A stretch of 41,764 nt of DNA from Nitrospiraceae bacterium (GTDB lineage: Bacteria; Nitrospirota; Thermodesulfovibrionia; UBA6902), in NCBI GenBank assembly GCA_003599425.1, contig QZKC01000036.1:1-41764 (forward strand), read 5' to 3'. The notes beneath the pieces were generated by a model. The model was given only the letters and a program-made list of their open reading frames with translations. It had not been told where the DNA came from and ran no database searches. The position numbers and the translations under genes were made by a program. Positions 13,428 through 32,874 of this stretch are shown in pieces (within the stretch, counting starts at the first letter, position 1; each line of letters begins with the position of its first letter).

Positions 13428-15128
13428 ATGGGCGGGATAATACTAAAGGTTATCTTGATATTGTCTGCAGTATTCTCCCTCTCTGTTCATTCTCCTGCCG
13501 CTCAGAACGTTCGCAGCTCCGTAAAGATCGGAGTTGTTTCAATGATCACCCCCCGCCATACTGTTGAATATTACCAGGATATCATTGATTACTTATCGGC
13601 AAAGCTTCATATGCCTGTTGAGATGGTCTTCAGGAAGACCTACGATGAGATGGACAAAATGCTCGAAAAAGGCGAGGTCGATGCCGCCTTTATCTGCTCT
13701 TCACCTTACGTGGAAGACAGAAAAAAATTTGGTGCGGAACTGCTTGTTGCTCCCCAGGTAAACGGCAGCGTTATGTACAGATCCTTCATTATCGTCCACA
13801 AGGACAGTGACATAAAAAATATTGACGACCTCAAGGGCAGATCCTTTGCGTTCACCGACCCTAAATCCAACTCAGGCAAACTGTACCCTACATATCGTCT
13901 TGCAAAGAACGGCCATACCCCTGAAAAATATTTCAGCAAATACATCTACAGTTACAGCCATAACAAGTCTGTAGAGCTTGTTGCCAAGAAAATAGTTGAC
14001 GGTGCAGCAGTGGAGAACCTTATTTATCAGTATATGATCAAGGAGCAGTCCCCGTATGTTGAACAGACGCGTATCATAGAGATATCGCGCGAATTTGGAA
14101 TTCCTCCCCTGGTCACCACGCCCCGCGTGTCGACATTTCTTAAAGAGAAAATGAAGGAACTATTTGTAAATATGCACGAGGACCGCACGGGCAGGAAAAT
14201 ACTTTCATCCATGCTTATAGATAAATTTGTGGAATCATCTGACAGCAATTATGATTCGATCAGGGAGATGCTGGCATTCACATCAAAGTTTAATGTCACA
14301 GATATTGCTTTTTCTCTGGAGAAAAAGGTCATATTCGTCGGAGTAGTCCCCAGAGACAATCCCAGAATAGCATATGAGAAATACCAGCCTATCGTTGATT
14401 ACCTCTCGGAATCCACTGCGTACGAATTTGAGCTTACTCTTGAAAAGACATACGATAATATCGTTTCTGCCCTGGGACGGGGTGATATCGACATTGCCTT
14501 TCTCGGACCTCTCACATACTTAAATGCTCATAAAAAGTTCGGCGCCGTATCCATTCTTAGGAGTGTTACAGACAAGGATGAACCCACTTATCGCAGCGTA
14601 ATTGTGACGAGAAAGAACCACTCGGTTAATAACCTGTCAGACCTTAAAGGAAAGGACTTTGCTTTCGCCGCCATGGAGTCTACATCCGGCAATCTTATTC
14701 CGCGTCTTATCCTGGCCGAAGAAGGGATACATCTGAAAGAATTGAGAAGCTACAGCAATTTTGATTTTCACGAGTCTGTCATAAAATGGATTTTGAAGGG
14801 CAAGTACGACGCAGGTGCGGTCAGGGAATCAGTTGCAGAGAAGTATATCCCACAGGGATTGCGGGTACTGTCAATATCCGGTCCGATCCCTACGGGCCCG
14901 ATCGTTGTCGGCACTAAAACCCCTTATGCCATTGTCGAAACGATCAAGCACAATCTGCTGAACTTGAATAAAACCGAATCTGGAATGGAGGTGTTGAAAA
15001 AACTTGATCCTGAGATGAGGGGAGGATTTATTGAGGCAAGCGACTCTGATTATGAGCATATAAGACATCTCATAAATAAGGTGCCGTTTACCTGCGGCCT
15101 CGGTTGTCACCCGAAAATGCAGCTATGA
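13428..15128 (+). CDS. Tandem-domain PhnD-type periplasmic binding protein, sensor input (AioX-like)
   Basis: A 566-residue exported protein: signal peptide (~1-25), then two related periplasmic-binding domains of the PhnD/phosphonate type (~32-290 and ~305-550). Each contains a VG-V-start, a D-AF-x3-Y pocket motif and the DLKG-x2-FAF segment. In arsenite-sensing systems a single-domain PhnD relative (AioX) binds the oxyanion and activates a neighbouring kinase. Here a kinase and a sigma-54 regulator follow directly, so an input role is inferred. Cysteines are rare: C90 in the first domain's pocket motif (AFICSSPY, where domain 2 has AFLGPLTY) and a C-terminal CGLGCH. The start is uncertain because no clear ribosome binding site precedes the ATG. 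Confidence 0.85.
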   Translation: MGGIILKVILILSAVFSLSVHSPAAQNVRSSVKIGVVSMITPRHTVEYYQDIIDYLSAKLHMPVEMVFRKTYDEMDKMLEKGEVDAAFICSSPYVEDRKKFGAELLVAPQVNGSVMYRSFIIVHKDSDIKNIDDLKGRSFAFTDPKSNSGKLYPTYRLAKNGHTPEKYFSKYIYSYSHNKSVELVAKKIVDGAAVENLIYQYMIKEQSPYVEQTRIIEISREFGIPPLVTTPRVSTFLKEKMKELFVNMHEDRTGRKILSSMLIDKFVESSDSNYDSIREMLAFTSKFNVTDIAFSLEKKVIFVGVVPRDNPRIAYEKYQPIVDYLSESTAYEFELTLEKTYDNIVSALGRGDIDIAFLGPLTYLNAHKKFGAVSILRSVTDKDEPTYRSVIVTRKNHSVNNLSDLKGKDFAFAAMESTSGNLIPRLILAEEGIHLKELRSYSNFDFHESVIKWILKGKYDAGAVRESVAEKYIPQGLRVLSISGPIPTGPIVVGTKTPYAIVETIKHNLLNLNKTESGMEVLKKLDPEMRGGFIEASDSDYEHIRHLINKVPFTCGLGCHPKMQL

Positions 15129-16753
15129 AACAGGTCCTTTTCAGAAACCTTACTCTTCAGAAGAAGTTCATCATCATCACGTTTTCCGCGGTGATACTTG
15201 TCATGGTTACTGTCGGAGCGCTAACCATTACAGTAGAGAGGAACATCCTTCATCGCGACATAGAGCGGCAGGGAAGGATCCTTGCCGAGACGCTTGCTAT
15301 TCCGGTAATGAATGACCTCATATATGAAAAGCTCGGCCTTGTGGAGGAGGGAGGACTCATTGACAACTACGTTACGGAAATATTCAGGAGGAAGGATATT
15401 GACCTCATCTATCTCGCCGTGCTTGACACGAACGGCCGGGTAATCTCACATAATGATTTCAATGAGTACGGGAAAACATACACGGACAGCATAACCGACA
15501 CAGCTTTGCATTCTGATGTCACGATAGTGCAGAAATTTCATCATGACAAAAGCGGCCATGATGCCCTTGATGTCGCCACTCCGTTGTCCATTGGGAAAAA
15601 AAGGTGGGGCACCCTAAAATTCGCTGTGTCACTGGAAAGACTGGCCCGGGAGGTGCAAGCGGTTATTTTCAATGGAATAATAGTGACGTCGATTCTTCTC
15701 GCTGTAGGTCTCGTCCTGATAGTACTTCTCAGCAGGCGCTTCATAAGACCGATAACAGAAATGGCAAAGACAATGGAAAAAGCGGGCGGCGACTCGCTCG
15801 ATGTTCGGGTGGAAGTACAGGGAGAAGATGAGCTTGCATTACTGGGAAAGAGTTTCAACAGGATGATAGAGCGCATCAGGGAATCGAACAAGAAGCTGAA
15901 GCAGACCCATAAGGAGCTTTTAAGTTTTGTGAAAGCGATAGAAAGAACAAGCGGCGATGCCCTGGATACCCAGGTGGAAATAGAGGGTTGTGACGAAATT
16001 ACTCTCCTCTGCCAGAGTTTCAATAATATGATTGAACGTATCCGCGCATCGAACCTGGAGCTGAAGAAGACTCATGAAAAACTGTTTCACTCTCAGAGGC
16101 TCGCTTCCCTGGGAATTCTTGCGTCAGGTGTTGCACATGAGATAAACAATCCTCTGGGAGGCATGTTCAACTGCGTTGAAATGATTGAGCAGAACAGCAA
16201 TAATGAAGAGTTAAGAAGACGCTATCTCGGGCTTCTGAATGATGGATTGAAACGGATTGAAGCTATCGTGGGGAAATTGTTATGGATGGCCAGGAGGGAA
16301 GAACGAATGCCGCAAAAGATTGACATTAAAAGTACGCTGAGGGATGTTTACCGGTTTGCGGAATACAGGATTAAGAGCAAGAACATCCTCTATCGGGAGC
16401 AGGTTGCCGAGGATACGAGCCTTAATATGGACCCTCATGATTTTCATCAGGTAATGATGAACCTCATGATTAATGCCCTTCAATCCATGAATGATGGAGG
16501 GGTACTGGAAGTGTCGGCCTATCTTGATGATACCGGTACGATCCTTCAGGTGTCAGATACGGGTATGGGAATTGACGAAAATGATCTGCATAAAATATTT
16601 GATCCCTTCTATACGAGTAAAATGCCGGGCGAAGGGACAGGCCTCGGCCTGTGGGTGACCTATGAGATTGTAAATAATTATGCCGGTGAAATCACGGTGG
16701 AAAGCGAGAAAGGAAAGGGATCGACGTTTACCCTTAAATTTAACGGAACGTAA
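15125..16753 (+). CDS. Membrane histidine kinase with two HAMP-like repeats
   Basis: A 542-residue sensor kinase from the ATG at 15125, which overlaps the upstream stop (ATGA); a TTG at 15104 is possible but less likely. Transmembrane helices at ~14-36 and ~182-204 flank a ~145-residue periplasmic region. Next come a HAMP domain and a second, clearly homologous HAMP-like segment (both contain a D-L/A-D-x-V-E-x2-x2-E pattern and a SFN-x-MIERIR helix). The HisKA phosphoacceptor is H338 (GVAHEINNPLGG). The ATPase domain has N (MNLMINALQSM), G1 (DTGMGID) and G2 (GTGLGLWVTY) boxes. It probably senses the liganded upstream binding protein and phosphorylates the regulator encoded next. Confidence 0.93.
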   Translation: MKQVLFRNLTLQKKFIIITFSAVILVMVTVGALTITVERNILHRDIERQGRILAETLAIPVMNDLIYEKLGLVEEGGLIDNYVTEIFRRKDIDLIYLAVLDTNGRVISHNDFNEYGKTYTDSITDTALHSDVTIVQKFHHDKSGHDALDVATPLSIGKKRWGTLKFAVSLERLAREVQAVIFNGIIVTSILLAVGLVLIVLLSRRFIRPITEMAKTMEKAGGDSLDVRVEVQGEDELALLGKSFNRMIERIRESNKKLKQTHKELLSFVKAIERTSGDALDTQVEIEGCDEITLLCQSFNNMIERIRASNLELKKTHEKLFHSQRLASLGILASGVAHEINNPLGGMFNCVEMIEQNSNNEELRRRYLGLLNDGLKRIEAIVGKLLWMARREERMPQKIDIKSTLRDVYRFAEYRIKSKNILYREQVAEDTSLNMDPHDFHQVMMNLMINALQSMNDGGVLEVSAYLDDTGTILQVSDTGMGIDENDLHKIFDPFYTSKMPGEGTGLGLWVTYEIVNNYAGEITVESEKGKGSTFTLKFNGT

Positions 16754-16775
16754 CCCACATTATGTATAATTTATT

Positions 16776-16916
16776 TTTGGACAAGCCATGGTTCAAAAAC
16801 ATCTTGAATGCAATAGATTTTTAAAAAGACATGAGTTCGCATGTTCAACAGAATATTTTCGGACATGGGATGTTAAGGAATTGCTCAATATGTTTTTTTC
16901 ACCATACTTGTCCAAA
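16776..16916. repeat. Inverted repeat pair in the kinase-regulator gap
   Basis: TTTGGACAAG (16776-16785) and CTTGTCCAAA (16907-16916) are a perfect 10-bp inverted repeat separated by 121 bp. They flank most of the 189-bp gap between the kinase and regulator genes. The left copy continues CCATGG; a related CAAGCCATGG occurs at ~13313, before the binding-protein gene. They could be operator halves or the ends of a small mobile or folded element. Confidence 0.45.
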
Positions 16917-16942
16917 GGTATGAATAATTTGGGCTAAAGAGC

Positions 16943-18286
16943 ATGGAACATAAACTGCTGCTTATAGAAGATGATGCGATCATGAGGGTCACTCTTGAGG
17001 ATTCCCTCAGGGCACAGGGTTATACGATCTGCGCCTTTGAAAAAGGAGAGAACGCGGTTGCCGTATTTAACAAAGACAAGTTCTCTCTCGTCATTACCGA
17101 TGTTCGTCTGCCCGATATGCAGGGGCTTGAGGTTCTGAAAGCGATCAAAGACAAAGATGAACACGTCCCTGTGATCGTCATGACGGCATTCGGGACAGTA
17201 AAGGATGCTGTGGAGGCCATGAAGGTCGGGGCGTTTGACTATATCACCAAACCGTTTTCACTGGAAGAGTTCAATCTTATCGTGAAACGGGCGCTTGAGA
17301 TGAAAGACCTGAGAGATGAAAATGCCAGGCTGAAAAGGGACCTGTCAGATTGCTACAGCTACCCCAATATAATAGGTGAAAGCGATAAGATGGTTGCCGT
17401 TCAAGAGCTCGCCCGGAAAGTTGCTCAGACAGATTCGACGGTTCTGATCACAGGGGAAAGCGGTACCGGGAAGGAGCTGATCGCCACGATCATTCATTAT
17501 CAAAGCAAACGCCGTAATTACCCTCTTGTGAAAGTGAATTGCGCGGCCTTACCGGAAAACCTCATCGAGAGCGAGCTTTTCGGATATGAAAAGGGGGCCT
17601 TCACCGGGGCCGTAAAAACAAAACCGGGCCGGTTTGAAAGAGCCGACAGGGGAACGATCTTTCTGGATGAAATAGGAGAACTCTCACCTTCCATACAGAC
17701 AAGGCTCCTCAGGGTGTTACAGGATGGGTCTTTTGAAAGACTGGGCGGAACCAATACTCTGAGTGTCGATACAAGGGTAATTGCTGCGACAAACAGAAAT
17801 ATTGCCGAGGATATGAAGACAGGAAGATTCAGGGAGGACCTCTATTACAGGGTGAATGTGATCCCCGTCCATATGCCCGCCCTCAGGGAGCGGAAGGAAG
17901 ACATTCCGCTTCTCATTGAGCACTTTCTTGACATTTATAATTGCAGATTCGGCAAAAGGGTCAGACTGCAGCCTGAAGCAGTTTTCGCGCTAATGGATTA
18001 TCATTTCGCCGGGAATGTCCGGGAACTTGAGAACATAGTGGAAAGAATAGTGGCGCTCTCAGCCGGTAATCTCGCTGGTATTGAAAGTCTGCCTTCTCAT
18101 ATTGTAACAAAGCAAAAAGGTCCCGCTCCCGTGAACACTCTGTATGAAATAGCGTCCTCAGCGGAAAAGGACCATATCTTAAAGATGTTGCAGGTTACCA
18201 GGGGGAACAAGACCAAGGCCGCTGAACTCCTCGGCATCAGCAGAAAAAGTTTGTGGGAGAAAATCAGGGCGTATCAAATCGAATGA
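16943..18286 (+). CDS. NtrC-type sigma-54-dependent response regulator
   Basis: A 447-residue regulator. The receiver domain (1-~120) has acidic residues D10-D11, the phosphorylatable D53 (VITDVRLPD), T81 and K103. The AAA+ domain has Walker A GESGTGKE (171-178), the sigma-54-contacting GAFTGA loop (218-223), Walker B FLDEIGE (~240-246) and the arginine region LRERKEDIP. A Fis-type helix-turn-helix ends the protein (GNKTKAAELLGISRKSLWEKI). It should open sigma-54 promoters after phosphorylation by the upstream kinase. The sigma-54 promoters and GTTAC-N6-GTAAC palindromes found at 19.7-19.95 kb and 37.3-37.46 kb are its likely targets. Confidence 0.95.
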   Translation: MEHKLLLIEDDAIMRVTLEDSLRAQGYTICAFEKGENAVAVFNKDKFSLVITDVRLPDMQGLEVLKAIKDKDEHVPVIVMTAFGTVKDAVEAMKVGAFDYITKPFSLEEFNLIVKRALEMKDLRDENARLKRDLSDCYSYPNIIGESDKMVAVQELARKVAQTDSTVLITGESGTGKELIATIIHYQSKRRNYPLVKVNCAALPENLIESELFGYEKGAFTGAVKTKPGRFERADRGTIFLDEIGELSPSIQTRLLRVLQDGSFERLGGTNTLSVDTRVIAATNRNIAEDMKTGRFREDLYYRVNVIPVHMPALRERKEDIPLLIEHFLDIYNCRFGKRVRLQPEAVFALMDYHFAGNVRELENIVERIVALSAGNLAGIESLPSHIVTKQKGPAPVNTLYEIASSAEKDHILKMLQVTRGNKTKAAELLGISRKSLWEKIRAYQIE

Positions 18287-18289
18287 CGC

Positions 18290-19696
18290 ATGGCAGGCAG
18301 GTCTGCGTCCAAAACCAAATACATTATTGGGCGAAACATGTTTAAACGAATTATACTGGTACTGCTGTTTTTATGTGCGCTCGTTGTTGCTGCGGGATTG
18401 TTCGCTGCCGAATATTACATGTCCCGTCCTTCCTCGTGCGGATCATGCCACATTATGAGACCATACTATGATTCCTGGAAAAGCTCCAAACATGGAGAGA
18501 AAAACATCGCCTGCGTTGACTGTCACTATGCGCCAGATGAGCGACATGGGATCAGAGGGAAATTCAGGGGGCTAGGACAGTTCTTTACCTATCTCGGCAC
18601 AAACAGCAAGAGTGTCCGGAAGGCGACAAGAGTAAATGACCTGAGCTGTATGACATCAGAGTGTCATCCCGCTGAACAATTCATGGATAAGAAAATGAAA
18701 TTCACCGAACGGATATCATACATTCATGCTACTCACAAAAACAAAACCATAGAGGGACAGGTCCTGCACTGCGATACCTGCCACCAGCATGTGCAGGCCG
18801 GAAAACATTTCGAGGTCCCAAGGGAGTCATGCTTCCTCTGTCACTTCAAGAACGCCCAATTCAATGAAGACAGGGGGAAGTGCTCGCTCTGCCATGAAAT
18901 TCCGGCAGGGGCTCTGCAGAAACAGAAGCAGGGTGAAGTAGGCACCGATGAAACCCCCATCACCCATGAATCTCTCCAAAAGGCCCGCGTATCGTGCCGG
19001 AGCTGTCATTATGAGCTTGTTCAGGGTACAGGGGAGATCAAAGTGGAAAACTGTTTTAACTGCCATGAATATTCAGAACAGATGAAGCAGCAGCTTGAGG
19101 ACAAAAAACTGATGCATGAAATGCATGTATCAGCACAGAATGCCGAATGCTTTGATTGCCACAGGCCTATCGCGCATCAAAAGGTTGAGTTTCTGGATCC
19201 GGTTAAGGAATCATGCACATTCTGTCACCCGGATCATCACCGGCTCCAGAAACTGCTTCTTGTCGGAGACAAAAAGAAGAATGTTATGGAGGCTCCGGGA
19301 CTTATGTACGATGTGAAGACAAACTGCATAGGATGCCATCTGGATGAACGCGTAGTGAAGGGAGCAAAGGTCCTTCATGGCTCTGCGAAGGCCTGTGCAG
19401 CCTGTCATACGGAAAAACATGAAGCAATGGTCGCTGAATGGAAAGAGAAGATCGAAAAAGAATTGAAGTATGCAAAAGAGCTGGAGCAGGAAGCTCAGAT
19501 TGCGATAGAAAAAGCCGGAATGCATGTTCCAAAGCAAAAGCTAACAACTGTAAAAGCACTTGTGAAAGAGGGGCAGGAGAATGTGAGGATTGTTGAATAT
19601 GGAGGCGGAGTGCATAACAAAAAGTATGCGGTGATCCTTCTTGACACAGCGATGAACAATTTCGAAGCCGCAATAGAAATGCTCAGTCAGGAATGA
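18290..19696 (+). CDS. Membrane-anchored dodecaheme cytochrome c with NapC-like N-terminus
   Basis: A 468-residue cytochrome with one N-terminal transmembrane helix (~20-40). It has 11 CXXCH motifs plus one CX4CH (CMTSECH), so up to 12 hemes. The beginning (CGSCHIMRPYYDSW...H...CVDCH) resembles the NapC/NirT quinol-dehydrogenase family. The C-terminal ~90 residues form a heme-free helical tail ending EYGGGVHNKKYA, as in several multiheme reductases. It starts 3 nt after the regulator's stop, so it is cotranscribed with the sensory genes. It is a paralogue of the soluble dodecaheme cytochrome at 23.6 kb. The likely task is to take electrons from, or hand them to, the membrane quinone pool. Met17 at 18338 is an alternative start. 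Confidence 0.88.
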   Translation: MAGRSASKTKYIIGRNMFKRIILVLLFLCALVVAAGLFAAEYYMSRPSSCGSCHIMRPYYDSWKSSKHGEKNIACVDCHYAPDERHGIRGKFRGLGQFFTYLGTNSKSVRKATRVNDLSCMTSECHPAEQFMDKKMKFTERISYIHATHKNKTIEGQVLHCDTCHQHVQAGKHFEVPRESCFLCHFKNAQFNEDRGKCSLCHEIPAGALQKQKQGEVGTDETPITHESLQKARVSCRSCHYELVQGTGEIKVENCFNCHEYSEQMKQQLEDKKLMHEMHVSAQNAECFDCHRPIAHQKVEFLDPVKESCTFCHPDHHRLQKLLLVGDKKKNVMEAPGLMYDVKTNCIGCHLDERVVKGAKVLHGSAKACAACHTEKHEAMVAEWKEKIEKELKYAKELEQEAQIAIEKAGMHVPKQKLTTVKALVKEGQENVRIVEYGGGVHNKKYAVILLDTAMNNFEAAIEMLSQE

Positions 19697-20025: not shown

Positions 20026-20049
20026 ATGAGAACGCCCCTGTTCTTATGA
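20026..20049 (+). CDS. Seven-codon leader mini-ORF coupled to FeS protein 1
   Basis: ATG at 20026 reads M-R-T-P-L-F-L and stops at TGA 20047-20049, which overlaps the ATG of the FeS gene (ATGA). AAAGGGAC precedes it, while the FeS gene has no ribosome binding site of its own. The mini-ORF could deliver ribosomes by translational coupling. Seven codons can arise by chance, so support is modest. Confidence 0.33.
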   Translation: MRTPLFL

Positions 20050-20963
20050 GAAGTCTGGATAGAAGACAATTAATCAAGCTTGCTGCTTTAGCAGGCACAG
20101 GCGCCTTCCTGCCGCGTCAGGCATCTGCTGTTGGAGAAATATTTGAAGCAATAGCGAAGAAGATGTCTGAGGGAATAAAAGGCACCATCGGACAGGAGGT
20201 CGAGACCCCGCTTCCAGTGAAAGGCGCACGGTTCGGCATGGTCATTGATCTGGGACTGTGTATTGGATGCAGGAGATGCTCATACGCGTGCAAATTAGAG
20301 AACAATGTGCCGGATACGATCAATCCGCCTTACATCATGGTGCTCGAAACAAAATATAAGCCAGGCCAGATCATTGCCGAAGAGCAGCCGATGAAAAATC
20401 ATGTGAACGGCAATGGACTGCTGTATACAAAACTTCGCCGAGACCGGATGTACATGCCTGTGCAATGCAATCACTGCGCAGATCCTCCCTGCACCAAAGT
20501 GTGTCCTACAAAAGCTACGTACAAGAGCCCTGACGGCATAGTAATGATGGATTACAACAAATGTATCGGGTGCAGGTATTGCATGGCCGCCTGCCCGTAT
20601 AATGCACGAAGATTCAACTGGTGGAAACCGGAGGTGTCTCCTGAAAAAATAAACCCCCTCGTCCCGTTACGCCTTGACGGAGTAGTTGAGAAATGCACCT
20701 TTTGCGTGCACCGCACGAGACGCGGCAGGACTACCAGATGTGTGGAGGCCTGCCCGAACAAAGCCAGGACCTTTGGGAATCTCAATGACCCGGAGAGTGC
20801 GGTTTCAAAGTTGATCGCAAGCGAGAGGAGCTTCCGTCTCAAAGTGGGTCTGAACACAGGTCCCCAGATTTGGTATCTGACTCATCCCAAAGAGAAACCG
20901 ATGATCTGGTATAAACCGATTCCGATTTCCCCGGATATCAGAGGATTAAGGAAATCAGGGTGA
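20046..20963 (+). CDS. Periplasmic four-cluster iron-sulfur protein 1 (Tat-exported, DmsB/NrfC type)
   Basis: A 305-residue protein with a Tat-like signal (DRRQLIK, then hydrophobic residues to ~30). It carries 16 cysteines in four groups: CIGCRRCSYAC, CNHC...CTKVC, CIGCRYCMAAC and CTFC...CVEAC. These are the four [4Fe-4S] clusters of the DMSO-reductase beta-subunit family. It passes electrons between a membrane NrfD protein and periplasmic hemes or a catalytic subunit. The next gene (NrfD 1) starts on its stop codon (TGATG), showing tight coupling. It is the first full-length gene after the sigma-54 promoter. It lacks an adjacent catalytic subunit, so it probably serves a quinone module rather than being the enzyme's own beta subunit. 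Confidence 0.9.
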   Translation: MRSLDRRQLIKLAALAGTGAFLPRQASAVGEIFEAIAKKMSEGIKGTIGQEVETPLPVKGARFGMVIDLGLCIGCRRCSYACKLENNVPDTINPPYIMVLETKYKPGQIIAEEQPMKNHVNGNGLLYTKLRRDRMYMPVQCNHCADPPCTKVCPTKATYKSPDGIVMMDYNKCIGCRYCMAACPYNARRFNWWKPEVSPEKINPLVPLRLDGVVEKCTFCVHRTRRGRTTRCVEACPNKARTFGNLNDPESAVSKLIASERSFRLKVGLNTGPQIWYLTHPKEKPMIWYKPIPISPDIRGLRKSG

Positions 20964-23581: not shown

Positions 23582-23635
23582 TGATCATGAAACCGATGAA
23601 TGCATTCTCATAGGATAAAAGACAAGGAGAGAAGA

Positions 23636-25170: not shown

Positions 25171-25767
25171 ATGAAGAACAAATTAATAATATATATTGGC
25201 GGACTTCTTCAAATTATTGTGTTGCTTCTTTTATGGGCTAACGCGTCAGCCGATAATGATGTCCCTGATTTCTTCGTGCCGCCGCCGCCTTTTTCGGAAG
25301 GCATTTTCCCCTGTACCGAATGTCATGCCGAGATGGAGGTAAACAGGACCCGGAGAAAGCTCGACTTTCATGAAGACATCGTCCTGAAGCATGCTGAAGA
25401 GCAGAGATGGTGCCTTGACTGTCATAATCCTGATAACAGGGACAAACTTCGGCTGGCAAGCGGAGAGCTGATTTCATTTGAAAAGTCATATTACCTTTGC
25501 GGCCAGTGTCACGGGACCCACTTCCGTGACTGGAAGGCAGGTATTCACGGTAAAAGGACTGGATACTGGAATGACAGGAAACAGTACCGCCTCTGCGTTC
25601 ACTGTCATAATCCTCATCAACCGAGATTTAAGCCGTTGAAGCCTCTGCCTCCTCCGTTAAGTCCGGAGGACATAAAATATAACAGGTCACCGGATAATGA
25701 GATCCCAAAGAATCCCTTAAACAGCTTAATACAAGCGGAGATTAAAAATGGACCAGAAAAAAAATAG
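25171..25767 (+). CDS. Tetraheme cytochrome c
   Basis: A 198-residue exported protein with an N-terminal hydrophobic segment (~5-27) that may be cleaved near ASA-DND or kept as an anchor. Four CXXCH motifs: CTECH, CLDCH, CGQCH and CVHCH. The C-terminal third is Pro- and charged-rich without hemes. The gene overlaps the next one (FeS protein 2) by 20 bp. Tetraheme + FeS + NrfD in this order is known from quinone-linked redox complexes such as Dsr, Tmc and Cbc types, so it is probably the cytochrome subunit of that module. Confidence 0.87.
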   Translation: MKNKLIIYIGGLLQIIVLLLLWANASADNDVPDFFVPPPPFSEGIFPCTECHAEMEVNRTRRKLDFHEDIVLKHAEEQRWCLDCHNPDNRDKLRLASGELISFEKSYYLCGQCHGTHFRDWKAGIHGKRTGYWNDRKQYRLCVHCHNPHQPRFKPLKPLPPPLSPEDIKYNRSPDNEIPKNPLNSLIQAEIKNGPEKK

Positions 25768-26680
25768 AGATATCCATTCCAGACATATCCACAGGAGAAC
25801 ATTTCTCAAGGGAGCTGCGCTGGGCCTGGCATCTATGGCTCTGCCCTTTGGGACTGCGGACGCATCTGTCTGGGAGGCATTTTTCCAGAAGCATTACCGC
25901 GAAATGTCCGCTGATGACAAGAGGGATGTCATTCTACGGATGGAGAAGGAGTATGCAAAAGCATACGATACGAAATTTAATATCAAGACCACTAAGCCTA
26001 CACCCGGTGTAAACTTTGGCTACGGTCTGGATGTTTCAAGGTGCATAGGCTGCAGAAGGTGTGTGTATGCCTGTGTGAATGAAAACAATCAGTCCAGAGA
26101 TCCCCAGATGCACTGGATAACTGTCCTGGAGTTTAAAAAAGGCGAGAGATGGGTCAATGTCTTTGAAGAAGCCAAAAAACATTATAACCCCGAGACAGTG
26201 CCTGAAGAAGGACACTTCTATTTGCCTGTCCAGTGCCAGCAGTGCGAAAATCCGCCGTGTGTGAAAGTATGCCCTACTCAGGCGACCTGGAAAGAACCTG
26301 ATGGCATTGTTGTGGTCGATTACAACTGGTGCATCGGCTGCAGGTATTGCATGGCAGCATGCCCATACGGGGCGCGGCGTTTCAACTGGGCAAAACCGAG
26401 AGTATCAAAGGAAGAACTGAACCCTGAAACACATTATCTCGGCAACCGTCCGAGGTACAAGGGCGTTGTTGAGAAGTGCACCTTCTGCATCCAGCGGACC
26501 AGAGAAAATCCCGGCAGATATCCGGCCTGTGTTGAAATATGCCCTGTCGGCGCCAGGAAATTCGGAAATCTTCTCGACCCGAAGAGCGAAATCCGGTACT
26601 GCATAGAGAACAAGAGGGTGTTCCGTCTTAAAGAAGATTTAAATACATTGCCGCAGTTTTATTATTTCTTTGCAAGTTAG
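25748..26680 (+). CDS. Periplasmic four-cluster iron-sulfur protein 2 (Tat-exported)
   Basis: A 310-residue protein with a clear Tat motif (HRRTFLK, residues ~15-21) and hydrophobic stretch to ~38. Four cysteine groups, CIGCRRCVYAC, CQQC...CVKVC, CIGCRYCMAAC and CTFC...CVEIC, bind four [4Fe-4S] clusters. A ~65-residue helical insertion separates the signal from the first cluster, resembling DsrO-type subunits. The start overlaps the tetraheme gene and has GGAG seven bases upstream. It likely links NrfD 2 to the tetraheme cytochrome. Confidence 0.9.
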   Translation: MDQKKNRDIHSRHIHRRTFLKGAALGLASMALPFGTADASVWEAFFQKHYREMSADDKRDVILRMEKEYAKAYDTKFNIKTTKPTPGVNFGYGLDVSRCIGCRRCVYACVNENNQSRDPQMHWITVLEFKKGERWVNVFEEAKKHYNPETVPEEGHFYLPVQCQQCENPPCVKVCPTQATWKEPDGIVVVDYNWCIGCRYCMAACPYGARRFNWAKPRVSKEELNPETHYLGNRPRYKGVVEKCTFCIQRTRENPGRYPACVEICPVGARKFGNLLDPKSEIRYCIENKRVFRLKEDLNTLPQFYYFFAS

Positions 26681-26700
26681 CGGTAAAAGGAGAAGGACCT

Positions 26701-27939
26701 ATGACTGATTTATTGCTTCCGGTAAAAAATTTCATCACAGCCCTGAAATTTATAACAAGAGGCGGCAAGTCATATTACGCATGGCTTGTGTTTCTGCTGC
26801 TATTGATCTTATGGGGGGTAGGAGCTTATATACGTCAGCTTGATGAAGGCATGATACTTACCAACATGAGGGACCAGGTCTCATGGGGTTTTTATATCTC
26901 TAACTTCACTTTTCTTGTGGGAGTTGCAGCAGCAGCGGTACTGCTCGTTATCCCCGCATATCTCTATAATTTTAAACCCATAAAGGAAATCGTCCTTTTA
27001 GGTGAAATGCTGGCCATTACGGCTATCATCATGTGTCTGCTTTTTGTCATAGCAGATCTTGGGAGGCCTGAGAGAGGATGGCATATCCTCCCTATTGTCG
27101 GCATGATGAATTTCCCCGCATCCCTCCTTGCCTGGGATGTTATAGTCCTGAACGGATACCTCGCGATCAACTGCATAGCAGTGTTTTATGTGCTTTACAG
27201 ACTTTCCATCGGCAGAGAATATAAGATGTCCATCATTTGGCCGATCGTAATAATTTCAATCCCCTGGGCCATAAGCATTCATACCGTAACGGCATTTCTT
27301 TATAACGGACTTTCTGCGAGACCCTTCTGGAACGCATCGATACTTGCGCCGCGGTTCATAGCGTCGGCCTTATGCTCAGGTCCTTCCATAATGATCATAA
27401 TTTTTCAGATCGTCAGGAAAGTCTCAAAGATAGAAATTTCTGATACGGCTCTTTTCAAGATAGCGGAACTGATCGCCTATGCCATGGGATTAAACCTGTT
27501 CCTCTTTGGCGCCGAGGTTTTTAAGGAATTTTATTCAGGGAGCATTCATCTCGCTCCGATGCAGTACCTTTACTTTGGACTGCACGGTCACTCTAACCTT
27601 GTTGTCTGGATGTGGATGGCCTTTATTTTTAATCTGACGGCATTTTTTCTCTTTTTGAGGCCACAGACTCGGGAGAACTATTTTACCCTGAATCTGGCTT
27701 GCATATTGGTGATCATGGGTGTATATATTGAGAAGGGCATGGGGCTTATTGTCCCGGGATTTGTTCCTGATGTCCTGGGCGAAATTTATGAATACGGCCC
27801 TTCAGGGATCGAAAAGAGCGTCGCGATAGGAGTATGGGCGCTCGGGGCCTTGTTTTTCACATTACTGCTGAAATTTGCACTGCCTATCTATACGGGGGAA
27901 TTAAGATTCAAAACACCTGACCCAGGGGATAAAAAATGA
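26701..27939 (+). CDS. NrfD/DsrP-family quinone-interacting membrane subunit 2
   Basis: A 412-residue integral membrane protein with about ten hydrophobic helices. DQVSWGFYISNFTFLVGVAAAAVLL and DLGRPERGWHI are hallmarks of the NrfD/DsrP/ActC branch. A good ribosome binding site (AAAAGGAGAAGG) is present. Together with the tetraheme cytochrome and FeS protein 2 it makes a three-subunit quinone module distinct from module 1. Its stop codon overlaps the start of a candidate 46-residue small ORF. Confidence 0.9.
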   Translation: MTDLLLPVKNFITALKFITRGGKSYYAWLVFLLLLILWGVGAYIRQLDEGMILTNMRDQVSWGFYISNFTFLVGVAAAAVLLVIPAYLYNFKPIKEIVLLGEMLAITAIIMCLLFVIADLGRPERGWHILPIVGMMNFPASLLAWDVIVLNGYLAINCIAVFYVLYRLSIGREYKMSIIWPIVIISIPWAISIHTVTAFLYNGLSARPFWNASILAPRFIASALCSGPSIMIIIFQIVRKVSKIEISDTALFKIAELIAYAMGLNLFLFGAEVFKEFYSGSIHLAPMQYLYFGLHGHSNLVVWMWMAFIFNLTAFFLFLRPQTRENYFTLNLACILVIMGVYIEKGMGLIVPGFVPDVLGEIYEYGPSGIEKSVAIGVWALGALFFTLLLKFALPIYTGELRFKTPDPGDKK

Positions 27940-28076
27940 CTAATAGAACTAAAACAAGATCGCCGGGAACAAATATCGGTCTGAATGAACAGACGATGTA
28001 CCCGATAGAAAGGGGAGTGTTTATGAATGAAATTGCAACCCATATCTATAACATTCAGAAAAGGAGGTTAATATGA
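27936..28076 (+). CDS. Possible 46-residue small protein linking NrfD 2 and FeS protein 3
   Basis: An uninterrupted ORF starts with ATGA over the NrfD 2 stop and ends with ATGA over the start of FeS protein 3, so it overlaps both neighbours by four bases. The peptide is 46 residues, basic, begins MTNRTKTRSPG and ends NIQKRRLI; it has no transmembrane helix, Cys or recognisable domain. A second start inside (28023) follows GAAAGGGGAG. Exact double overlap is typical of translationally coupled genes, but the strong ribosome binding site for FeS protein 3 (AAAAGGAGG) lies inside it, so it may be only a leader. Confidence 0.42.
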   Translation: MTNRTKTRSPGTNIGLNEQTMYPIERGVFMNEIATHIYNIQKRRLI

Positions 28077-28921
28077 AAAAAGGTATTGGGATATCGCGAC
28101 GTGATGTACTTAAGGCGGGCGGAGCGACTGCAACGGTAATCGCTGTCAGCGGAGCATCCGCAGTAGTGGCAAATGCCGCCGAAGGTCCGCCCCGGTGGGC
28201 GTTTATCGTGGACCTGCGCAGGTGTGTCGGATGCAGGACCTGTACTGTTTCCTGCAAGGCAGAATTCGATGTACCTCTCGGCAGGTGGCGCGCAGTCATT
28301 AAACCGGTGGACTGGGGGATATATCCGAACAACAGGAGGGCCTTTGTCCCGAGATTGTGCAACCACTGCGCCGGTGAATCTGAAAAAGGGGTTCCGCCCT
28401 GTGTCGAGAAATGTCCTGAGGCGCAAAGCGGTGAAAGGTTGAAGATGGGAGATGTCCGTTACAGGACCGGAGCCACATACAAGAGACCGGACGGAATGAT
28501 TCTGATCGACATGAACCTCTGCATAGGATGCTACAAGTGCATTGATGCCTGTCCCTATGGTGTACGGTACATTGACCCTTCAGTAAAACTGAAAAGGCCG
28601 GACAGGGAAAAAGATTTCGGCATCGGCAAATGCACCTTCTGTGAGCATCGCGTGGACAACGGGATCGAACCATCCTGTGTTCAGGCCTGCCCGCACAGCG
28701 CGAGGATTTTCGGTGACATGAACGATCCGGACAGCAAGGTGTCAAAGCTTATCAAAGAGTTCAACCTTGACAAGAACCGTGAAAAGACGACTCTCTTGCC
28801 TCAGGAAAAAACAGTGCCCCATGTATTTTACATTGACCCTGAGGGGGTGCTGGGCCGTTACAAATTTGACTATAAGGACAAGGCAAAAAAACAGGCGGAG
28901 TTCCGCGACAACATTGTTTGA
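28073..28921 (+). CDS. Iron-sulfur beta subunit of the molybdoenzyme (FeS protein 3)
   Basis: A 282-residue protein with a Tat motif (SRRDVLK) at residues ~8-14. Its four cysteine groups (CVGCRTCTVSC, CNHC...CVEKC, CIGCYKCIDAC, CTFC...CVQAC) bind four [4Fe-4S] clusters. The insertion between the second group's Cys pairs (AGESEKGVPP) and the 'RTGATYKRPDGMILID' segment are like the beta subunits of the arsenate, tetrathionate and selenate reductase group. It lies 42 bp before the catalytic gene and is taken as its electron-transfer partner, exported by Tat, possibly as a complex with the alpha subunit. Confidence 0.9.
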   Translation: MKKGIGISRRDVLKAGGATATVIAVSGASAVVANAAEGPPRWAFIVDLRRCVGCRTCTVSCKAEFDVPLGRWRAVIKPVDWGIYPNNRRAFVPRLCNHCAGESEKGVPPCVEKCPEAQSGERLKMGDVRYRTGATYKRPDGMILIDMNLCIGCYKCIDACPYGVRYIDPSVKLKRPDREKDFGIGKCTFCEHRVDNGIEPSCVQACPHSARIFGDMNDPDSKVSKLIKEFNLDKNREKTTLLPQEKTVPHVFYIDPEGVLGRYKFDYKDKAKKQAEFRDNIV

Positions 28922-28963
28922 GGATAACCGCATGGTCAGACAAATAACTGGAAGGAGGATAAA

Positions 28964-31483
28964 ATGATACAGTTAACACGACGCAACTTTATGAAGTTTG
29001 CTGCTGCCAGCGGCGCGGTCCTCGCAACTGGAGAGGGCATGAAGTCCAAAGCCCTCGCTGGCACGGTTCAGACACAGACGGGAAGAGATTTTTCGCCGAC
29101 AACAAAAAAGGAGCGGCAGGCGATCCCCACGGCCTGCTGGCAGTGCGTGGCCCGTGACTCGATGATCGGTTTTGTGGAGGACGGCAGGTTGGTAAAGCTT
29201 GAAGGCCATCCGAAATCCATACGGGGCAACGGACACATCTGCGCGCGAGGCATGGCCGGGATCAACCAGGTCTATGACCCTGACAGAATACTCTACCCCA
29301 TGAAGAGAACGGGCGCGCGCGGCGAGGGGAAATGGAAGAGAATAACATGGGATGAAGCTGTCACTGAGCTTACAGACAGGATCAAAAAGCTCCGAGACGA
29401 AGGACATCCTGAGAAGTTCATATTCCATTATGGGAGAATGAAGGCGAGCGCTGCCAAGCTCATAGGCGGCCTTGTAGAAGCCACTGGCACAGGATCGATC
29501 GGCAACCATACCTCGTTATGCGAAGCTGGCAAATGGACTGCACAGGAGCTGACGTGGGGAGGACACTTTGATAACTGGGATATAGACAAGACAAAGTTCA
29601 TCCTCAATTTCGGAAGCAATATCCTTGAGACTCATACAAACCACATGCCGGTTGCCCACAGGATAATGAATGCAAAAGTAGACCGTGGTGTAAGAATGGT
29701 GACCTTTGACGTGAGGATGTCCAATACGGCAGCCAAGTCTGATGAATGGATACCGATCAGACAGGGAACAGACATGGCGGTGTTCCTTGCCATGACGAAC
29801 GTGGTCCTGAACAAGGGGCTCTATAAGGGCGACGGCGAAGAGTTCCTGAAATACTGTAAGTGCACGGAGAAGCACGATGACACTGTGGAGAACAAGGTAG
29901 AAGCCCTGAAGAAGCACTATGCAAACTACACCCCTGAGTGGGCCTCGAAGATAAGCGGTGTGCCTGCTGCAAAGATCGAGCAGATCGCGACCGAGTATGC
30001 GACTACGAAACCTGCTGTACTGATAGCATACAGGGGTGCTATAACAACATACAACGGCACCGACTCAGAGCGCGCCCGCATGGTGCTTAACTCACTGACA
30101 GGGAATATCGACAATCCCGGAGGGAACTGCAAGGCAGTCGGCGCCGGGTGGGCATCAGCAAAAATCCCTAAGTCTGAAACAAAGAAGGCTAAGGACATTT
30201 TTGACGGCGCCCCAAAAGGGCAACCCGAGTCCTACCCGTTCCCAACTCACCATGCGAGCCACCAGGTACTGCCCCGGATCAAGGCATCAGGCCCCGGTAC
30301 TTTTGAACTGGCCCTTTGGTACTGCTATACCCCTGCTTATGCAAATGGTGATGTTCAGGGGAATATAGACGTGCTGAAAGATGAGAAGCTCCTTCCCTTC
30401 GTCGTATCTGTAGACCCGTTCTACGGAGATTCCACTCACTACGCGGACATGATCCTTCCGGATGCCACCTATCTTGAACGGTATGACTGGGAAGACATGG
30501 TGGACCCGACCCAGATCGGCGAGTACTACATCCGTCAGGCGCTGGTAAAGCCCCTTGGAGAGTCAAGAGACTTCGGCGATGTAATGATTGAAATCTGTAA
30601 CCGCCTTGGCATTAAGACCGATTACAAGACAAAAGAAGAGTATGTCCAGCAGTCAGTCGACATGACACCCGGGGTGAAAGAGGCAGGAGGCTGGGAGTAC
30701 ATGAAGAAGAACGGGGTCTGGAACGACGGCAAGGCCAAATACTACAGCTACAAAAAAGAAGTGCCGGCAGAAGCGATCAAGGAAGCCGGAGTCGTCTACG
30801 ATGAGGAAGCGGGTGTATACTGGAACCCGGAGAAGGCCCATGTAACGGAGAACAAGGGCTACTTCAGGTCAAAGAACGCCTATAAGGGGTATGTTGCCAC
30901 AAAGATGGGCGACAAACTCATAGCCGGGTTCAAGCCGGACAAGATCAACAAGTCTGGCTACATGGAACTCTGGTCTCAGCCCCTTAAGGATGTCGGGATG
31001 AACCCGCTGCCGGAATGGATACCTGCGCCTGAGCATGCGAATATTGCCCCAGACGACCTGCACCTGACTACGTTCAAAGTTGTAGTCCAGACCCATTCCC
31101 GTACCGCTAACTGCAAGTGGCTGAGCGAGATATACCCTCAAAATCAGGCCTGGATGAATCCAAAAGATGCAGCAGCAAGGGGCATCAAGGACGGCGACAG
31201 GATCAAGGTAAAGTCAGCTATCGGTGAGATGGAGATTCTTGCCCATGTGACAGAGAACGCCCAACCCGGGCACATCAATATATCGCACCACAAGGGGCAC
31301 TGGGCGTATGGCAGATACGCATCAGGCAAGAAGTCGCCCGTGGGCGCAGATGATCCGGATGATGCGAACATCTTCTGGAAAGGGTTCGGCACACACCCCA
31401 ACTGGATCATACCGAACAAAGGTGACCGCATTGCCGGATACCAGCGCTGGAACGATACTCTTGTGAAGGTCACGAAGGCATAA
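28964..31483 (+). CDS. Periplasmic molybdopterin oxidoreductase, catalytic subunit (DMSO reductase family, unusual clade)
   Basis: An 839-residue Tat-exported enzyme (TRRNFMK). The N-terminal cluster motif reads C58-x2-C61-x3-D65-x27-C93: the third cysteine is replaced by Asp (codon GAC, two base changes from a Cys codon). C186 (NHTSLCEAGK) is the probable Mo ligand, placing it with the ArrA/ArxA/PsrA/TtrA/SrrA relatives. The C-terminal part (~700-835) is the molydop-binding barrel with SHHKGHWAYGRYA. The loop before the Mo ligand reads HYGRMK; as I recall, ArrA has RGRY and ArxA XGRGWG, so it fits neither. Length is close to ArrA (~850). Context (PhnD sensor, ars genes) suggests an oxyanion such as arsenate/arsenite; selenate, antimonate or sulfur oxyanions remain possible. 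A strong ribosome binding site is present (GGAAGGAGG). Confidence 0.9.
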   Translation: MIQLTRRNFMKFAAASGAVLATGEGMKSKALAGTVQTQTGRDFSPTTKKERQAIPTACWQCVARDSMIGFVEDGRLVKLEGHPKSIRGNGHICARGMAGINQVYDPDRILYPMKRTGARGEGKWKRITWDEAVTELTDRIKKLRDEGHPEKFIFHYGRMKASAAKLIGGLVEATGTGSIGNHTSLCEAGKWTAQELTWGGHFDNWDIDKTKFILNFGSNILETHTNHMPVAHRIMNAKVDRGVRMVTFDVRMSNTAAKSDEWIPIRQGTDMAVFLAMTNVVLNKGLYKGDGEEFLKYCKCTEKHDDTVENKVEALKKHYANYTPEWASKISGVPAAKIEQIATEYATTKPAVLIAYRGAITTYNGTDSERARMVLNSLTGNIDNPGGNCKAVGAGWASAKIPKSETKKAKDIFDGAPKGQPESYPFPTHHASHQVLPRIKASGPGTFELALWYCYTPAYANGDVQGNIDVLKDEKLLPFVVSVDPFYGDSTHYADMILPDATYLERYDWEDMVDPTQIGEYYIRQALVKPLGESRDFGDVMIEICNRLGIKTDYKTKEEYVQQSVDMTPGVKEAGGWEYMKKNGVWNDGKAKYYSYKKEVPAEAIKEAGVVYDEEAGVYWNPEKAHVTENKGYFRSKNAYKGYVATKMGDKLIAGFKPDKINKSGYMELWSQPLKDVGMNPLPEWIPAPEHANIAPDDLHLTTFKVVVQTHSRTANCKWLSEIYPQNQAWMNPKDAAARGIKDGDRIKVKSAIGEMEILAHVTENAQPGHINISHHKGHWAYGRYASGKKSPVGADDPDDANIFWKGFGTHPNWIIPNKGDRIAGYQRWNDTLVKVTKA

Positions 31484-31486
31484 GCG

Positions 31487-32185
31487 ATGAAAAAGTCCAG
31501 AGACATAAAAAAAGAAATGTCTGAACTTGCTTCGCAGAGGAGCAGCGTCTATGGATTTCTGGCAAGAGTCTACAGCAGAGAACTGAATTCAGCGCTCCTT
31601 AACAGGATACAAGACCCCCGGTTTATGGGGGTCTTGTTTGACCTGGAGGTTCAATTAGGCGATGAATTTTTTTCGCGGCCCAAGCACGAACTTCTCGAAA
31701 ATCTCGCTGTTGAGTACACCAGGCTGTTTTTGGGCCCCGGCAGGCACATCTCTCCTCATGAGTCTATGCACCACCAACGGAATGACGGAGACTGGGGGAA
31801 ACTGTGGGGAGCTTCGACGGTCGAAGTAAAAAAATTCATTGAATCTGCCGGATTGCACTATAAGCCTGAATATACAGGCTTGCCTGATCACATCAGTGTG
31901 GAACTGGAATTCATGCAGGTGCTTACAAAAGAAGAATCGAGGGCCTGGAACCGGAATGATATGGACCGGGTTCATTACTGCTGTCAGATCGAGAAGAAAT
32001 TCATGAACGAACATCTGTTAAAGTGGGTACATATTTTTTGCAACAAAGTGATTTCCGATGCTGGAATGTCGTTTTACAGAGAGATCGCTGCCATAACGAA
32101 GAATTTTATGGAACTCGAAAATGAAGAACTTGGCGGATGTTATTCAAAAGCGTATGAGGAGCAACTGCTCAAGGCAAGAAACTAA
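31487..32185 (+). CDS. TorD/DmsD-family chaperone for the molybdoenzyme
   Basis: A 232-residue, all-helical cytoplasmic protein with the family signatures EYTRLFLGPGRHISPHESMH (~72-91) and LPDHISVELEFMQVL (~123-137). Such chaperones bind the Tat signal of a molybdoenzyme and hold it until cofactor is inserted. It starts 3 nt after the catalytic gene, so its client is clear. An 11-bp perfect hairpin lies inside its coding sequence at 31609-31637. Confidence 0.9.
   Translation: MKKSRDIKKEMSELASQRSSVYGFLARVYSRELNSALLNRIQDPRFMGVLFDLEVQLGDEFFSRPKHELLENLAVEYTRLFLGPGRHISPHESMHHQRNDGDWGKLWGASTVEVKKFIESAGLHYKPEYTGLPDHISVELEFMQVLTKEESRAWNRNDMDRVHYCCQIEKKFMNEHLLKWVHIFCNKVISDAGMSFYREIAAITKNFMELENEELGGCYSKAYEEQLLKARN
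31609..31637 (+). other. Strong intragenic hairpin in the chaperone gene
   Basis: ACAAGACCCCC (31609-31619) pairs perfectly with GGGGGTCTTGT (31627-31637) around a 7-nt loop, followed by TTG. It is within the first fifth of the chaperone gene. It could attenuate transcription or block 3'-to-5' decay, giving more enzyme than chaperone. There is no proper U-run, so RNA processing is as likely as termination. Confidence 0.5.
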
Positions 32186-32201
32186 GCCATAAAGGAGGCA
32201 T

Positions 32202-32378
32202 ATGTTTGGACTGGGAACAACAGAGCTGATAATTGTCTTGGTAATTGTGGTAGTTTTATTCGGCGCATCCAGACTCCCCAGGATAGGAAGTGGAATAGGC
32301 GAAGCGATAAAAAACTTCAGGAATTCTACATCTGATTCTCGCGAGCTCGAAGATGCGCCGAAAAATAAAACTGACTGA
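32202..32378 (+). CDS. tatA: TatA/TatB-type protein translocase subunit
   Basis: A 58-residue protein too short for most ORF filters. It begins [21 protein letters not shown], the single TatA membrane helix, followed by [19 protein letters not shown], the amphipathic helix with the usual LP..G..IG.....F spacing, and a short charged tail. AAAGGAGG lies just upstream. A dedicated TatA in the operon fits with four Tat-exported products in this locus (three FeS proteins and the molybdoenzyme). No tatC is seen in the window. Confidence 0.93.
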
Positions 32379-32421
32379 CGAAGACAGCAAGGAAACAAGT
32401 TCGTAACATATCATTTAGTTA

Positions 32422-32874
32422 ATGTGCGCCATGAATGCCAGAATTGTTTCAATAAACATTAGCGATAAAAAGGGCGTAAGAAAAAAAGTTGTCGGATCCG
32501 CGTTCCTGAAAAAAAATTACGGGATTGAAAGTGATGCCCATGCCTCTGATCAATGGCACAGGCAGATAAGTCTCCTGGCCCTTGAAAGTATTAAAAAAAT
32601 GCAGGACATGGGGCTTGACGTCGGGCCGGGAGATTTTGCCGAAAATATCACCACCGAAGGCATTGACCTTCCTGCGCTTCCTGTTGGCACAAAAATAGTT
32701 ATAGGGCAAAATATTGTGGTTGAGGTCAGCCAGATCGGCAAAGTATGCCATAACCGCTGTGCTATTTATTACCAGGCAGGAGATTGCGTTATGCCAAAAG
32801 AAGGCATTTTTGCAACCGTACTCATCGGCGGAACAGTCATGAAGGGTGACAAGATCAGAATAGTATTGCCATAA
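32422..32874 (+). CDS. MOSC domain protein
   Basis: A 150-residue stand-alone MOSC domain. The conserved C-terminal segment GKVCHNRCAIYYQAGDCVMPKEGIFATVL is present, with the cysteine that binds sulfur or the molybdenum cofactor in this superfamily, plus GDFAENITTEGIDL. Such proteins are thought to handle or sulfurate molybdenum cofactor. It closes the molybdoenzyme operon. Two starts are possible (32422 and 32431); no good ribosome binding site is seen for either. Confidence 0.87.
   Translation: MCAMNARIVSINISDKKGVRKKVVGSAFLKKNYGIESDAHASDQWHRQISLLALESIKKMQDMGLDVGPGDFAENITTEGIDLPALPVGTKIVIGQNIVVEVSQIGKVCHNRCAIYYQAGDCVMPKEGIFATVLIGGTVMKGDKIRIVLP

Follow-up and report, generated by a model that had tools for sequence, protein, structure and literature searches.

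What does a cell breathe with an exported molybdenum (Mo) enzyme that sits behind an ArrX-like sensor and beside arsenic genes, and that groups with neither ArrA nor ArxA? The question is raised by a 41,764-nucleotide stretch of a Nitrospiraceae genome (2.9 Mb in 106 contigs, 89.6% complete); this whole stretch is "the window" in what follows, L numbers denote loci, G numbers denote genomes and MoA is our working name for the catalytic Mo subunit. An earlier note had seen in the window a candidate oxyanion respiration system, running from a sensor to a MOSC domain protein, with arsenic as a guess at the substrate. Every gene that it named is an unbroken open frame, at the position given or close by, and family searches agree with its readings. 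Here, from genes, motifs, kinship and neighbourhoods that can be read directly, we argue at a little below even confidence for an arsenic-responsive anaerobic respiration: an arsenate-sensing, menaquinol-linked arsenic oxyanion reductase, with MoA standing where ArrA stands in related loci.

Results

MoA (28964-31483, on the forward strand, as are the window's other genes up to the end of the ars set unless marked otherwise) is a catalytic subunit of the Mo-bis(pyranopterin guanine dinucleotide) (Mo-bisPGD) kind, with a twin-arginine translocation (Tat) signal, a CxxCxxxD motif for the iron-sulfur (FeS) cluster FS0, Cys at the Mo-ligand position, and three molybdopterin domains (PF00384, PF01568, PF04879). 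It belongs among the MopB proteins with a Cys ligand, its NHTSLC aligning with the Cys of ArrA. Not one of 24 listed NCBIfam families (June 2026) is matched above its own cut-off: the best match is PhsA (NF012032, 341.2 bits, cut-off 694), and ArrA (NF041714) gives 205.6 bits (cut-off 1600), TtrA/SrdA (NF011567) 110.3 bits (cut-off 1750) and AioA (TIGR02693) 54.2 bits (cut-off 359.05). To miss the ArrA cut-off is not decisive by itself, because 12 ArrA-type matches of the phylum miss it too. Thirty members of our alignment A1 match the same families (best PhsA E-value 6.9e-127), and these best E-values, given in place of printed bit scores, imply that they too fall below the cut-offs.

Where, then, does MoA belong? 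Of the 395 genomes sampled in the phylum, 21, its own among them, carry a relative at E <= 1e-100, and in a species-level genome collection 132 of the 138 stretches matched by six short patterns hold one; the loci studied here are the best 80 of those 132, at 31-80% identity, and the named near relatives of the window's MoA are Thermodesulfovibrionia/Nitrospirota. The earlier note had proposed a phylogeny of the catalytic subunit, and in a quick tree (75 rows) and a careful one (51 rows), whose reference rows include no AnrA, SrrA, SrdA or SoeA, MoA lies in none of the ArrA, ArxA, Psr/Phs and TtrA-like clades, and both trees agree that its family stands apart. In the careful tree MoA and 27 relatives (28 rows, four of them looser "other" rows) form one branch (100/100); ArrA and ArxA form another (100/100), in which the five ArxA rows have a branch of their own joined to ArrA, the program warning that two long branches, those of ArrA and ArxA, meet there; and Psr/Phs is separate (100/100). 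The TtrA-like rows, which themselves score 577-603 bits and so stay below the cut-off, were set as outgroup. MoA is placed neither with the ANA-3 ArrA, in either tree, nor with the XGRGWG proteins. Within its branch it joins L031 and L032 (Nitrospirota, 100/100), as part of a larger group of 12 rows from mixed phyla (100/100). Another group, of 10 rows (100/100), holds the betaproteobacterial type with its kin, and support for uniting the two groups is weak (83/48). Judged by sequence, MoA is a lineage of an unnamed MopB clade, distinct from ArrA, ArxA, Psr/Phs and the TtrA-like proteins. Its AlphaFold model (mean pLDDT 87.3) has two joint first matches in Foldseek, the Psr structure 2vpw and the ArrA structure 6cz7, at E 2.3e-46 each.

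The motif (R/K)GRY is given as the mark of ArrA and XGRGWG as that of ArxA (PMC6549141). The window's MoA has YGRM at this position, which is neither; family rows mostly have YGR, some WGR, L097 and L018 YGL, and the betaproteobacterial members YGRN or YGRD. The Arg of MoA aligns with that of ArrA's RGRY, and a Lys that follows the Mo-ligand Cys likewise lines up with one in ArrA, two residues that we take to be arsenate contacts in ArrA. L097 and L018, both of which have the cytochrome/NrfD chassis described below, read NHESTS in place of NHTSxC. As for FS0, in which the window has Asp for the third Cys, the 75-row alignment has Asp in 30 rows, all of them family or looser kin, and four Cys in 21 family or looser rows and in 20 of 20 reference rows; three fragments lack the region, and a paralogue in the window's own genome (L002) has Asp at the first place. 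The Asp is a family variant and not a family mark, because CxxCxxxC and CxxCxxxD both occur within the family. The switch from one to the other is seen among the MoA proteins of L031-L110.

One tie to arsenic lies in the sensor, a two-domain periplasmic protein (13428-15128) with two stretches of PF12974 (Phosphonate-bd). Its N-domain has ArrX as best match in the Protein Data Bank (E 1.6e-47) and AioX next, and its C-domain is best matched by PtxB. ArrX is reported to bind arsenate, and phosphate 150-fold more weakly; arsenite is the ligand of AioX and ArxX; and the common pocket is Y88 C106 Y131 S161 S163 H192 D210 (PMC5908839). The window's N-domain reads YCYSSHE, keeping six of these seven residues with D210 changed to E, a change found also in two of three ArrA-linked sensors; the C-domain reads YGYSSHR and has lost C106 and D210. 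From 46 of the 80 loci we aligned 49 sensor rows, some of which come from a second sensor set close to MoA and resemble those found beside ArrA genes: YCYSSHD stands in 40, YCYSTHD in six, and the remaining three are L034, in which S replaces C106 and G replaces D210, L060 (a gap) and L044 (a C-type domain only). In the careful sensor tree, where ArrX is a long branch, the betaproteobacterial sensors group with AioX (100/98) and the window's sensor does not; it is nearest to the sensors of L152 and L163 and then to ArrA-linked ones. A sensor histidine kinase (15104-16753) and an NtrC-type sigma-54 response regulator (16943-18286) follow, both placed by family search.

Sensor sets of this kind are found at ArrA genes as well. 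ArrA-model matches (760-1164 bits, none above the cut-off) occur in 12 genomes out of 148 from the phylum, and all nine that we checked have RGRY. Four of their flanks were fetched (L168-L171, Nitrospirota), and all four hold a sensor-kinase-regulator set at 52-55%, 48-50% and 58-61% identity, respectively, to that of the window (at L168 the stretch ends within the sensor); three of the four also have modE and moeA. Kin of the window's sensor set thus stand beside ArrA-type genes in four of the seven ArrA loci fetched for comparison, a count that leaves aside the betaproteobacterial ArrA loci L183, L184, L189 and L192, which have AioX-like sensor sets of their own.

Chassis genes, too, are common to the two enzymes. 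In the window they are c12a, a NapC/NrfH-type cytochrome (18290-19696) with, by eye, an N-terminal membrane anchor; FeS1 (20046-20963), a DsrO-like subunit that passes the NCBIfam DsrO cut-off (218.7 bits against 200), and the quinone subunit NrfD1 (20960-22144, by family search); c8 (22199-23581), of the cytochrome c554 type with 8 CXXCH and probably, by eye, a lipoprotein; the periplasmic c12b (23600-25156); c4 (25171-25767, 4 CXXCH); FeS2 (25748-26680), DsrO-like at 188.5 bits and so below the cut-off of 200; NrfD2 (26701-27939), of the DsrP family (418.7 bits, cut-off 350); and the FeS beta subunit of the Mo enzyme (28073-28921, by family search). The three FeS subunits have twin-arginine starts by eye. 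The earlier note counted 36 hemes: 34 CXXCH are confirmed, and c12a and c12b, with 11 CXXCH and one CX4CH each, bring the count to 36 only if both CX4CH bind heme. Its two FeS/NrfD modules are indeed there (20046-22144 and 25748-27939); the ferredoxin-type FeS subunits number three and not two, and the Mo/FeS-beta pair is not directly adjoined by an NrfD of its own.

That note also knew of no described Arr locus with two NrfD modules and so many hemes. The absence of such a chassis from Arr loci is not supported by SAR324 (L188, G440:C67), where a similar set surrounds ArrA in the order c8, FeS, NrfD, c12b, ArrA, FeS, TorD, c4, FeS2, NrfD2. Identities to the window are 35% for c8 (8 CXXCH), 36% for FeS, 23% for NrfD, 47% for c12b (11 CXXCH), 49% for c4 (4 CXXCH), 54% for FeS2 and 50% for NrfD2, and its ArrA has RGRY and is 69% identical to L111. 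Neither a full-length c12a nor a sensor set was found within the 34 kb examined there. At L219, in a genome (G351) that also has MoA, c12a (52%) lies directly upstream of ArrA, with modE-moeA-moaA divergent as in the window and no PhnD sensor within the 20 kb examined; at L220 c12a precedes ArrA-like pieces, with only a regulator-like gene at the contig end.

Nor is a unique layout of the window, as had been claimed, supported. The two NrfD modules mostly occur singly in the relatives' stretches (FeS1-NrfD1-c8-c12b in L152, L155, L158, L162, L165 and L166; c4-FeS2-NrfD2 in L167), so that their joint presence is an additive variant. A search with c12b through the 395 phylum genomes gave 21 places in 15 genomes; seven that lie outside the MoA loci already in the set were examined, two by ArrA (L219, L220), one by an FeS beta gene at a contig end (L216), and the others by a MoA remnant (L217), by c8 only (L215), alone (L218) and by another cytochrome (L221). 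The remnant (L217:15749-16003), the only piece of MoA seen in the single-contig genome G313, is a C-terminal one of 84 residues beside torD, tatA and c12a. A cytochrome of about 810 residues and 11 hemes flanks the operon, before or after it, at L153:2793-5219, L155:497-2947 and L034, with an MtrC/MtrF-like domain match in L153; none was seen in the window. The window is contig C17 of its genome, and two other contigs, C9 and C58, supply two more matches that pass the DsrP cut-off.

A second form of the locus, assigned by list position (and so including a few other taxa), is the betaproteobacterial one, with 48 loci, 34 of them at least 15 kb long. All 34 have FeS, NrfD and TorD together with a ferredoxin-like protein and two small proteins; two more small proteins occur in 33 and 31, the sensor and the kinase in 32 each and the regulator in 30. 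In plan this form resembles arx, which has a divergent sensor set, XSR (PMC6683785), but the catalytic clade differs.

MoA also keeps company with ArrA and ArxA. Genes of the ArrA clade occur in six of 50 relatives' genomes and ArxA (XGRGWG) in five, the two lists differing by one genome, and, with contigs matched by equal length, six of these 11 genes, all betaproteobacterial, lie within 17 kb of MoA (G410 at 17, G414 at 14, G428 at 9, G434 at 13, G444 at 8 and G445 at 10 kb). Another is 62 kb off (G411), and those of G409, G436, G437 and G440 are on other contigs. A Mo protein of L099 (30%) was at first taken for SoeA-like; its XGRGWG motif and coiled-coil insertion make it ArxA.

Arsenic resistance genes follow the MOSC gene in the window (33167-36364): arsR (by eye), ACR3 (33521-34615, 30% to the annotated ACR3 of Azoarcus), arsD (within the same span, 44-45% to the annotated ArsD of Azoarcus), arsM (35034-35825) and an ArsA-start/ArsC fusion (35822-36364), the last two by family search. 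ACR3 lies inside eight of the 80 relatives' loci (L031, L067, L072, L074, L076, L083, L086, L091), ArsA or ArsD in two further ones (L053, L073); plasmid pAZKH of Azoarcus sp. KH32C has arsC-arsD-arsA-ACR3 beside the regulator, kinase and sensor genes, and L156 (G341) has a full ars set adjoining torD and MoA. The ACR3 of L031 and L083 is 84% identical to the window's, and that of the other six is 75-92% identical to the Azoarcus protein and 27-31% to the window's. Because ACR3 comes from two unlike ars operons, its association with MoA arose at least twice. Across 50 genomes ACR3 occurs at 45 places in 40 genomes, so that the eight cases compare with 0.26 expected (Poisson 5e-10, relatedness ignored), in a sample of 50 of the 80 picked for long contigs after the neighbourhoods had been seen, with all eight positives included and the other 30 genomes left out.

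The remaining genes of the cluster are a TorD/NarJ-type chaperone (31487-32185, by family search), TatA (32202-32378; 64.4 bits, cut-off 53.9) and the MOSC domain protein (32422-32874, by family search). Divergent from the sensor, on the reverse strand, are the molybdenum cofactor genes moaA (10005-11012) and moeA (11016-12080), and a ModE-type regulator (12877-13230) lies on that strand too, all three named by eye; homologues of moeA (62-70%) and of the regulator (57-65%) occur at the same six loci, the ArrA-type L168, L169, L171 and L219 and the MoA loci L163 and L164. A second arsM-like methyltransferase stands outside the main cluster (3622-4671, forward strand; 194.6 bits, below the cut-off of 263). 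The fusion at 35822-36364 is a single open frame in which the first part of ArsA, roughly 44 residues with the P-loop, runs into an ArsC-type reductase; ArsA and the matching ArsC are separate genes in L156 and L162, and the fusion is either a true internal deletion or an assembly artefact. Farther on, after a TPR/AhpC-TSA protein and outside the conserved cluster, is a cytochrome with 13 CXXCH (39507-40877), like DmsE/GSU2203 at scores below the cut-offs.

Discussion

The earlier guess of arsenic has gained strength from the kinship of the sensor, the common chassis genes, the ars neighbours and the ArrA/ArxA neighbours, and arsenic remains our inference, as do the direction and the electron route. 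In the scheme that we favor, the ArrX-like N-domain of the sensor would bind arsenate in the periplasm, and the kinase and sigma-54 regulator would turn on the operon. Menaquinol would be oxidized at NrfD1/FeS1 and NrfD2/FeS2, perhaps also at the NapC/NrfH-like c12a, and the multiheme cytochromes would carry electrons to the FeS beta subunit and on through the FS0 cluster to Mo-bisPGD, where arsenate would become arsenite, to be handled by ACR3, ArsD and ArsM. NrfD-like subunits are described as binding quinone, having no redox cofactors and perhaps moving ions, while the outer side is the apparent place of ArrAB (PMC8076601). Because there are three possible quinol entries (NrfD1, NrfD2 and c12a) and up to 36 hemes, a periplasmic wire is suggested.

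Several findings weigh against this scheme. MoA is not sister to ArrA/ArxA and has neither arsenic-enzyme motif; the Mo-ligand position, Cys in the window, is not Cys in the close relatives L097 and L018 nor in the looser rows L026, L027, L028 and L103. The MoA-linked sensor of G273 (L167:9226-10137) is a PtxB-like C-type domain without an ArrX-like one, the betaproteobacterial MoA loci have AioX-type sensors, and the later ArrA loci L188, L219 and L220 showed no such sensor in the stretches examined; our main argument rests on the kinship of the sensor sets and not on their presence at every ArrA locus. A scan for sigma-54 promoters with at most two mismatches gave 32 sites against 39 expected, no signal above chance. 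Ten of the 50 genomes with MoA have no ACR3. Finally, ArrA and MoA occur together in G351, G068, G409, G410, G411, G414, G428 and G440, and because several genomes carry both, MoA is not a simple substitute for ArrA.

The direction is the weakest step. In the window the kind of sensor and the chassis point to arsenate reduction, and they speak against the reverse, in which MoA would be an arsenite oxidase with an Arx-like role, feeding the cytochromes and the quinone pool. We hold that reverse role unlikely, although the betaproteobacterial members speak for it: their sensor sets are divergent, as in arx, their sensors group with AioX and mostly have Val-Phe at AioX Val56-Phe57, and ArxA lies within 13 kb of MoA in G434, G444 and G445; the change from Cys to Asp at FS0 could also raise the potential of the cluster. 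Their AioX-like sensors point to arsenite, but sensor type is a weak guide to direction, because betaproteobacterial ArrA (RGRY) loci carry AioX-like sensors too. Nor need the oxyanion be arsenate. Antimonite is also served by ACR3-type pumps, and the arsenic neighbours could reflect shared efflux and the joint occurrence of arsenic and antimony around an enzyme for antimonate, like AnrA, or for another oxyanion. ArrA itself appears in a list of antimonate reductases, and there is an antimony-specific AnrA (PMC13284237); we rate this somewhat more unlikely than the reverse role. The antimonite oxidase NaoABC is set apart by its description, NaoA being nearest NapA and NaoC having a Rieske domain (PMC11521347).

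A sulfur or selenium enzyme of a wider Psr/Phs kind, acting on polysulfide, thiosulfate, selenite or sulfite, would suit the best family match, the tie of Psr with ArrA as nearest fold and the several betaproteobacterial hosts named as sulfur oxidizers (Thiobacillus, Sulfuricella, Sulfuritalea). The match to PhsA is, however, far under its cut-off, Psr/Phs is a fully supported branch of its own, and the rhodanese of L097, used as a query, found only four of 82 loci, its own among them, so that we think such an enzyme improbable. On that single query a rhodanese link, whether to sulfur or to thioarsenate, was dropped. The arsenite-induced, Soe-like cluster 2 of Thioalkalivibrio is set apart by description, having no Tat signal (PMC6620896). 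An arsenic step outside Arr/Arx, such as the turnover of thioarsenate or methylated arsenate, would explain why MoA occurs in the same genome or island as ArrA or ArxA, where it may not be redundant, and the window has two arsM-like genes; nothing positive speaks for such a substrate, and it seems to us the most improbable of these alternatives.

Returning to arsenate reduction in the window, we venture a wider and more tentative proposal, which we would not yet back against its opposite. MoA could be a third line of arsenic-cycling Mo enzymes beside Aio and Arr/Arx, spread over Nitrospirota, Pseudomonadota, Thermodesulfobacteriota, Bacillota, SAR324 and others, with arsenate-sensing, multiheme versions in anaerobes and an arsenite-sensing FeS-NrfD-MoA-TorD version in Betaproteobacteria, and with a reaction that the ArrA or ArxA of the same cells would not cover. 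Because its locus is wired like an arsenate-breathing system and we found neither a name nor a test for its lineage, MoA may have a part in the arsenic cycle that has gone unnoticed. The marker genes on which surveys of arsenic metabolism mostly depend are aioA, arxA and arrA, and if members of the clade do act as arsenic oxidoreductases, such surveys pass over a lineage of which 132 relatives were found. The idea can be tested, since some carriers are recorded as strains and not as metagenome-assembled genomes: Azoarcus sp. KH32C, Aromatoleum toluclasticum and Hydrogenophaga taeniospiralis.

Comparison with Known Systems

In titles and openings of abstracts, a search that left most of the subscription literature outside and is no proof of absence, we found nothing on the MoA clade, nor on ArrA with a chassis of this kind. 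SoeA is described as having no Tat signal (PMC6620896), and MoA has one. With DsrMKJOP, QrcABCD, MccACD and their NrfD complexes the window has in common c4-FeS2-NrfD2, which resembles DsrJ-DsrO-DsrP down to an NrfD2 of DsrP grade, although no DsrMK was seen at the locus. PsrABC/PhsABC offer, jointly with ArrA, the nearest solved fold (2vpw), and the betaproteobacterial members have an NrfD subunit as they do; they differ from MoA in branch, and from the window's operon in its multiheme cytochromes and two distal NrfD modules. ArxAB with ArxXSR is matched by the betaproteobacterial members in the divergent XSR, in the FeS/NrfD/Mo/TorD content and in common islands, whereas MoA lacks XGRGWG and ArxA groups with ArrA. 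Unnamed MopB lineages with a Cys ligand, basal to the chalcophilic clade and with PsrA-, PhsA- and SrrA-like proteins among their best matches, have been described (Wells et al. 2023, PMC10100899), and as far as that account goes they may include MoA. Against ArrA itself stand the separate branch, the 205.6 bits where the phylum's ArrA-type proteins have 760-1164, YGRM and CxxCxxxD. With ArrAB and ArrXSR, however, MoA and its locus have in common a Tat-exported Mo subunit with an FeS subunit and TorD, a PhnD-type sensor with kinase and regulator, Cys at the Mo-ligand position with the aligned Arg and Lys, and chassis-like genes that lie near ArrA in SAR324, with c12a adjoining ArrA in L219 and L220.

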